NCBI GenBank assembly: GCA_027460525.1
Contig: JAPZAS010000037.1
Coordinates: 1 to 33,186 of the forward strand
DNA length: 33,186 nucleotides
Source: Candidatus Methanoperedens sp.
Lineage (GTDB): Archaea; Halobacteriota; Methanosarcinia; Methanosarcinales; Methanoperedenaceae
Direction of reading: 5' to 3'
Part shown: piece after piece, positions 12,586-13,599 of the stretch
How positions within the stretch are numbered: the first letter of the stretch is position 1
How the letters are laid out: every line of letters begins with the position of its first letter
Notes under the pieces: generated by a model
The model's database searches: none
What the model was told of the DNA's origin: nothing
Seen by the model: the letters and a program-made list of their open reading frames with translations, nothing else
Made by a program: the position numbers and the translations under genes

Positions 12586-12881
12586 ATTATCATCTAATAT
12601 ACAATATAGTCTCAGGAATCAACCCAAAAGCATACTGAAATAAGACTTATACATTTTTATATTTTTCGGTTATGAAAATATTGAGATATTTAAAAAATGA
12701 TTTAATAATATTATCTCTTCAAACATATTTCTCATGTAGTTAAAAATGGATTTTTTACCACCAATCAGTCCTTCCAGGTTAGTTATAACATGCCCGCATT
12801 TGGCGCTTCTCGTTTCTTGTTTTATTTTTCTGGCTTTTCCAGTCTGACCTTCGAAAAGTTTGGCAGAATCTGAACCAAAAC
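12586..12881. other. AT-rich stretch with no supported gene
   Basis: This stretch is strongly AT-rich and has no convincing gene. The minus strand holds one open frame without a start codon (about 12675-12880) encoding KQETRSAKCGHVITNLEGL and a hydrophobic end. It could be a gene remnant but I do not recognise it. The right edge is the promoter of the small-gene cluster. Confidence 0.5.
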
Positions 12882-12927
12882 TTTTATATAGTTTAATTGC
12901 ATTATTGCATTATTGCAACATTGCAAT
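12882..12927 (+). promoter_or_regulatory. TATA box followed by four phased 8-nt repeats
   Basis: TTTTATATA at 12882-12890 is a strong TATA box. From 12896 to 12927 follow four abutting octamers, ATTGCATT, ATTGCATT, ATTGCAAC and ATTGCAAT, with TTGCA at 12897, 12905, 12913 and 12921. The transcription start is expected near 12911, inside the repeat, and the first ATG is at 12937. A tandem operator over the start site is the simplest reading. The adjacent winged-helix protein is the obvious candidate to bind it, giving autoregulation (inference). Confidence 0.65.
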
Positions 12928-12936
12928 CAGGAAATA

Positions 12937-13215
12937 ATGAAAACACAAGAAATTAAAACAATAACAGATCTGGTATGGGATTATTTTAATGAACATCCAG
13001 AAAAAGAACTATCGCCGGGTATGGTATTTAAAGCATTAACCAATAAACACAAAAAACTTAAAATTAATTATAGTAGCATAAATTCTGCGATAAACAGGTT
13101 TCATCTCCAAAAAATAATTTTTAGAACTTCCCGTGGGAAATATTCACTCAAACTTCCATTATCCAGGGGGCAGCTCAGGATCGATGACGTCATCAAACCC
13201 AAGGAGAATGAATGA
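12937..13215 (+). CDS. Small winged-helix DNA-binding-like protein
   Basis: A 92-residue protein that I cannot place in a named family. The predicted order is helix (TITDLVWDYFNEHP), helix (SPGMVFKALTN), a basic recognition-type helix (NYSSINSAINRFHLQKI) and a wing (IFRTSRGKYSLKLP), then a charged tail. This is the layout of a winged helix-turn-helix, similar to domains that sense or regulate phage and plasmid genes. ATG 12937 is chosen; a TTG at 12913 would lie inside the octamer repeats. It is the first gene of a three-gene small cluster, 52 nt before the next start. Confidence 0.62.
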   Translation: MKTQEIKTITDLVWDYFNEHPEKELSPGMVFKALTNKHKKLKINYSSINSAINRFHLQKIIFRTSRGKYSLKLPLSRGQLRIDDVIKPKENE

Positions 13216-13267
13216 AAAGTATAGATTTTTCGATATTTGAATTTAGTAAAAACATAGAGGTGAATTT

Positions 13268-13396
13268 ATGAAATGCCTGAGAAACACAAACAAAAGTTGC
13301 TTTTCCAAAGTGATAACTCAGGAATATGAGGAATTCCCGGCATGCATTAAAAACCAAGACTGTAATCATATTCCAGAGAGGGAGAAGTATGAATAA
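13268..13396 (+). CDS. Four-cysteine mini-protein, 42 aa
   Basis: A short ORF with a very good ribosome site (AGAGGTGA at 13256-13263) ahead of ATG 13268. The product begins MKCLRNTNKSCFSK and has Cys at 3, 12, 26 and 32 (FPACIKNQDCNH), with a nearby His, so it could hold one zinc or form two disulfides. It has no signal peptide. Its last eight bases overlap the ATG of the next gene (ATGAATAA), which implies translational coupling. No family recognised. The strong ribosome site and the coupling are the evidence that it is real. Confidence 0.6.
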   Translation: MKCLRNTNKSCFSKVITQEYEEFPACIKNQDCNHIPEREKYE

Positions 13397-13532
13397 AGTG
13401 ACAAAAATTGGAACAAAAATATTACATAATGCATGGGGCAACGGTACGATACTCGGATGGTACAATGATAAATATGCCTTCGTGAAATTCCCATGCGGAA
13501 CTCGATTAATAAATCCAAAAAAAAGGAATTAA
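13389..13532 (+). CDS. SH3/Tudor-like mini-protein, 47 aa
   Basis: MNKVTKIGTKILHNAWGNGT continues ILGWYNDKYAFVKFPCGTRLINPKKRN. The pattern G-x-x-x-x-H-x-x-x-G-x-G-T-[IV]-...-[YV]-x-x-V-x-F-x-x-G-x-x-x-[IL] is that of small beta-barrels such as CarD/TRCF-interacting, UvrD C-terminal and DUF3553-type domains, which bind RNA polymerase or nucleic acid. A longer in-frame reading from 13326 exists, but ATG 13389 is behind GGGAG and overlaps the preceding stop. Basic C-terminus. With the winged-helix gene and the Cys mini-protein it forms a compact unit of possible nucleic-acid regulators. Confidence 0.62.
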   Translation: MNKVTKIGTKILHNAWGNGTILGWYNDKYAFVKFPCGTRLINPKKRN

Positions 13533-13599
13533 GTACCTTCTGAACCAATCGCCGTGCAGAAAATCGCTTGCCCTAAATAATATATTCTTCCACTGTATA

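Follow-up and report, generated by a model that had tools for sequence, protein, structure and literature searches.

A phased octamer array as the putative autoregulatory operator of a small winged-helix gene in Methanoperedens and related archaea

The octamer array and the islet that carries it

The window, namely, the whole stretch of 33,186 nt that was analyzed, carries an AT-rich islet of about 1.0 kb (32% GC vs. 42–47% on both flanks) containing a gene for a 92-aa winged-helix protein and small ORFs (Table 1). The islet was missing at eleven sister loci of the genus, where the flanks were joined, and TTCTTCCA was found close to both of its edges; together, this suggests a discrete insertion. 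A small zinc-ribbon-like ORF lies on one side of the islet, and an aminopeptidase-like gene lies on the other. The 42-aa ORF, which had no Pfam matches, is likely cotranscribed with the regulator gene. The 47-aa ORF resembled PcrA_UvrD_tudor at a level below the Pfam cut-off (E = 0.0018), and no relatives of it were found in other genomes of the genus.

Table 1. Coordinates and strands of the features described in the text (window positions unless a locus is named).
Feature	Position	Strand	Role or basis
AT-rich islet, ~1.0 kb, with the regulator gene and small ORFs	12591-13598	.	Absent from sister species
TATA-like box TTTTATATA	12882-12890	+	Promoter of the winged-helix gene; sequence
Four-octamer array ATTGCATT ATTGCATT ATTGCAAC ATTGCAAT	12896-12927	+	Putative autoregulatory operator
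16-mer, second and weaker match to ATTGCAATATTGCAAT (14/16: ATTGCATTATTGCATT)	12896-12911	+	Read from sequence
16-mer, best match to the conserved ATTGCAATATTGCAAT (15/16: ATTGCAACATTGCAAT)	12912-12927	+	Comparison with homologous loci
92-aa winged-helix protein	12937-13215 (including stop)	+	Putative array binder; AlphaFold2, family alignment
42-aa ORF	13268-13396	+	Start preceded by GAGGTGA; read from sequence
47-aa ORF	13389-13532	+	Overlaps the 42-aa ORF at its end; weak tudor/SH3-like similarity
Four-gene cassette	L072 6001-9416; also L096, L097, L098, L099, L100

The array consists of two ATTGCATT octamers (12896–12903 and 12904–12911), one ATTGCAAC (12912–12919) and one ATTGCAAT (12920–12927), which follow each other with no gaps, so that TTGCA starts at 12897, 12905, 12913 and 12921, i.e., with an 8-nt period. 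Five bases (12891–12895) separate the array from the TATA-like box, and nine bases (12928–12936) separate it from the ATG at 12937. Tandem Repeats Finder detected the repeat independently (12896–12925, period 8, 3.8 copies, score 46). Among all period-8 four-copy blocks of the window, the array ranked first; its 29 of 32 column matches were not reached in any of 200 dinucleotide shuffles of the entire 33-kb window or 2,000 shuffles of the surrounding 337 nt (maximum of 27 in both sets), and the array is beyond chance. It was also the sole match to the exact three-unit phased TTGCA pattern in the 2.44-Mb genome. The first-pass annotation had described four phased, gap-free octamers between a TATA box and the start codon of a winged-helix gene, and this description was borne out by the sequence, Tandem Repeats Finder and the shuffles, as were, by the sequence, the array's start at +6 from the box and its end 9 nt before the ATG.

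The ATTGCA core was intact in all four octamers, and drift was confined to positions 7 and 8; two of the four units, adjacent to each other, were identical, and only the last one was a perfect palindrome. Single ATTGCAAT octamers, not in tandem, also occurred at window positions 299, 19684 and 31964, which together with the one at 12920 gives 4 occurrences vs. ~0.7 expected from base composition alone.

A conserved 16-mer at the promoters of homologous genes

In a profile search covering 186 genomes of the order, eight strong relatives of the 92-aa protein (E below 1e-26) were found besides the window, spread over four families and six genera, and at each of the eight homologous loci a perfect ATTGCAATATTGCAAT was present, ending 0–5 nt 5' of the ATG. 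This sequence is a perfect 16-bp palindrome and, at the same time, two abutting palindromic ATTGCAAT octamers; relative to it, the window array represents two abutting diverged copies, with 14 and 15 of 16 positions matching. Among the first 60 relatives searched, a homologue was found in only two, both with ATTGCAATATTGCAAT immediately 5' of the gene. The genus of the window genome includes the MAG clean1623, a Candidatus Methanoperedenaceae archaeon, and a scan of GTDB genomes yielded one further homologue, in a Methanosarcina MAG.

A search for the exact 16-mer in the 186 genomes gave nine matches in eight genomes, each abutting a homologue, while the reversed 16-mer, used as a control, gave none in the same genomes. 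Two of the nine matches belonged to one genome (G360), where one contig ends and another begins with the same sequence, so these most likely represent one locus split by assembly, which leaves eight loci. The two ends in question, that of contig C89 (L101) and that of contig C260 (L100), both carry the 16-mer and were counted once. Since G360 and G357 are near-identical, the number of independent loci is about seven. Across the genus (31 genomes), the degenerate form ATTGCAWYATTGCAWY matched only the window and two homologues, and weakly similar winged-helix genes of the same genomes (L080–L087) were without ATTGCAATATTGCAAT. The exact 16-mer also occurred in 24 stretches of viral contigs; these were dismissed as chance matches because no relative of the regulator was found in the adjoining frames and several lay inside coding sequence.

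Seven loci other than the window were aligned, and their pairwise identity averaged 100% in the 16-mer, 47% in the 12 nt beside it, 59% in the protein and 46% at third codon positions. When the window was compared with these loci, the corresponding values were 94% (best 16-mer), 44%, 39% and 37%. The conservation of the 16-mer thus far exceeds that expected from shared ancestry, and a conserved site at the gene's own promoter is present across the orthologues. The first-pass annotation had made its operator reading depend on conservation of the repeat at orthologous loci, and this conservation was found at 8 of 8. The 16-mer is a clean DNA-level marker by which the gene family can be found from DNA alone.

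The family consists of single-domain proteins of 77–92 aa. The AlphaFold2 model of the window protein, built with an eight-sequence alignment, had three helices followed by a two-stranded wing (H-H-H-E-E; pLDDT 85–90 over residues 11–70), and the protein is accordingly predicted to belong to the DNA-binding winged-helix class. Fold searches against the PDB returned mostly winged-helix proteins, including Fur and PadR, with no match at E ≤ 0.001, and no Pfam or NCBIfam family scored above its cut-off for the 92-aa protein. Residues Y45, N49, I52, N53 and R54, located in the predicted recognition helix, were invariant throughout the family, the window included, which fits a common target site. 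Divergence was highest in the window protein, in which seven additional residues are inserted ahead of this helix. Phylum-wide samples yielded no additional regulators outside the order, and the weak matches obtained there look like unrelated winged-helix genes. Viral contigs searched with the regulator protein gave no matches, and a phage collection gave two weak ones.

At the other loci examined, the winged-helix gene is followed by genes encoding a radical SAM/SPASM protein, an HD-motif protein and a family-4-like uracil-DNA glycosylase, in this order; at L071 and L073, the cassette is cut short by the contig end. The window regulator has none of these three genes beside it, and a search of the window genome for the HD-motif gene gave no match. 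The window regulator is an orphan, the rest of the cassette having been lost or never present. Since the window keeps the site without the rest of the cassette, the site appears tied to the regulator and not to the other genes.

Promoter geometry and the proposed operator function

The octamer pair lay 12–14 nt 3' of a clear TATA box at six of the other seven loci in the alignment; the exception was L098, where the box was weaker and lay 8 nt from the pair. The octamers of the window start at +6, +14, +22 and +30 relative to the box, in the same register as at the other loci and extended by one unit each way. Across the loci, the spacing between the TATA box and the octamers was kept, while the gap between the site and the ATG drifted. 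The first-pass annotation had read the array as a multivalent operator for the encoded protein, as a phase-variable leader or as both, and the phase-variable half of this reading was not supported beyond the difference in copy number. A tract in which gain or loss of an octamer alters the distance from TATA box to ATG, and hence expression, would agree with the presence of four copies in the window vs. two elsewhere; however, the array is short and imperfect, its only identical copies being the adjacent pair, so that no long run of perfect repeats exists in the window, and exactly two perfect copies were found at all eight other loci, with no spread in copy number. Together with a constant spacing on the TATA side and a variable one on the ATG side, this makes phase variation highly improbable.

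The distance usual in archaea between the TATA box and the transcription start places the predicted start of the window gene at about 12911–12915, inside the array. With starts predicted in this way, transcripts from most of the other loci would have little or no leader. Repression in archaea typically involves a site in the region from about 12 nt past the TATA box to the start codon, and activator sites usually lie 5' of the TATA box/BRE.

Considering the data on conservation and geometry together, the array is likely an autoregulatory operator: the 92-aa winged-helix protein would bind there to regulate the promoter of its own gene, most probably by repressing it. The operator half of the first-pass reading is strongly supported by sequence comparison, the perfect 16-mer occurring at every one of the eight homologues and nowhere else in the genomes searched. 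The array itself, its conservation, its restriction to this gene family and its position were observed; occupation by the encoded protein, a repressive effect and the number of bound subunits are inferred. The ancestral site of the family was probably the 16-bp palindrome ATTGCAATATTGCAAT, covering the transcription start region 3' of the TATA box, where the protein, once bound, would obstruct RNA polymerase or access to the start site and would thereby silence the regulator gene together with whatever follows it. In the window, the site would have doubled to four octamers, which have since partly diverged; four octamers could hold more protein molecules side by side, and tighter or more graded control is possible. 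Alternatively, the window array may be drifting, with its partner protein changed as well, given that this protein has diverged further than any other family member and carries its insertion ahead of the recognition helix. The deviations at octamer positions 7 and 8, with a single perfect palindrome left, suggest that the window site may be weakened or changed in specificity.

Three other explanations should be weighed against autorepression. It is unlikely, although the least so of the three, that the winged-helix protein binds the array and activates or switches its own promoter: some archaeal regulators do activate and position by itself is not decisive, but the site, from about 12 nt past the TATA box to the start codon, occupies the place typical of archaeal repression. 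A leader-RNA element, in which the palindrome would form a hairpin beside the start codon and control translation, is considerably less probable. The conserved 16-mer is able to form a short hairpin, and the L099 sequence folded better than its own shuffles (z = −3.2); in contrast, the window and the other homologues barely surpassed theirs (z from −1.8 to −0.6). Moreover, the predicted start lies inside the element at most loci, so the transcript would carry only part of the palindrome, and no compensatory changes were found, the sequence being frozen, which fits DNA recognition. Equally small is the probability that the octamers are bound by a different protein, be it a global regulator, a factor encoded by a mobile element or another factor specific to these loci. 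The confinement of the exact 16-mer to homologous loci among the 186 genomes argues against a shared global regulator, and in the window the site and the regulator occur without radical SAM, HD-motif or glycosylase genes alongside; the regulator is the sole constant partner gene of the site, which makes a different binder unlikely.

If autorepression is indeed the function, the repeat leads to a precise regulator–operator pair in methanotrophic and methanogenic archaea, groups in which cognate sites are known for few regulators. The window, with an orphan regulator and a doubled, diverged operator, would then represent a natural experiment on the joint evolution of a regulator and its site.

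Known systems and the accessory cassette

The met boxes recognized by MetJ are head-to-tail 8-bp palindromes present in at least two copies, some of them degenerate. This operator architecture is similar to that of the window array, whereas MetJ is a ribbon-helix-helix protein and the window protein is a predicted winged helix; its model, with three helices and a wing, does not have the MetJ/Arc fold. Small winged-helix regulators with Fur, PadR and BlaI/MecI folds belong to the same fold class according to the PDB searches, none of them matching at E ≤ 0.001. NrpR, the nitrogen repressor of methanogens, acts at two operators at nif, to judge from a title cited in PMC2723118. Like the window family, it is an archaeal repressor with short palindromic operators; however, its operator is GGAAN6TTCC and its regulon comprises multiple genes, whereas the window family has one gene and a different site.

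AbiEi antitoxins of type IV toxin–antitoxin systems (S. agalactiae AbiEi and M. tuberculosis Rv2827c were used for comparison) have a winged-helix N-terminal domain and exert negative autoregulation through promoter-overlapping repeats, with multiple sites bound together (PMC7319586). The PADLOC AbiEi profiles matched the regulator family weakly and over the N-terminal part only (best E = 5e-4). In AbiEi, the winged helix is followed by a C-terminal antitoxin domain and the site comprises two 23-bp inverted repeats 3 bp apart, whereas the proteins of the window family end after the winged helix and their sites are abutting 8-bp palindromes. A DUF1814 nucleotidyltransferase toxin gene was not present among the neighbors of the homologues or among the small ORFs of the window. 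The family does not belong to AbiEi: it has no C-terminal domain, no toxin partner and a different site.

A literature search found no matching operator or cassette, and the regulator family with its own operator is apparently undescribed. A published Geobacter site containing ATTGCAAT was set aside as part of a longer PerR-like site. Tentatively, and with somewhat less than even confidence, it can be proposed that these proteins form an undescribed archaeal family of single-domain winged-helix autorepressors with an octamer operator code of their own, which guards an accessory cassette, and that in the window the regulator has been orphaned and its operator expanded.

The chromosomal surroundings of the cassette varied from locus to locus, as would be the case for an accessory, mobile cassette. 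The radical SAM protein matched viperin profiles partially (E = 1e-12), and several other SPASM families matched better. The HD-motif protein (about 465–550 aa, with H...HD motifs read by eye) had no Pfam matches, and no matches to its gene were found in viral contigs. The cassette, for which no match to a named system was found, is possibly an anti-virus or nucleotide-modification system; if so, the 16-mer leads to four genes with a role in defence or nucleotide chemistry.

The Parabacteroides distasonis plasmid NZ_OY725812.1 (L105, 43418–56575) encodes a protein distantly related to the HD-motif protein, beside genes for a radical SAM protein, a nucleotide-kinase-domain protein and a TIR-domain protein, with a site-specific integrase nearby; as a lead only, these neighbors hint at a role in conflict or nucleotide modification. 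In LFW-24, a gene resembling a phage tail sheath (MPLALTYPGVYIEEIPSGVRT...) and its neighbors were located 5' of the cassette (L072, 2027–3592), and this neighborhood may represent a tail-like or contractile injection cluster.
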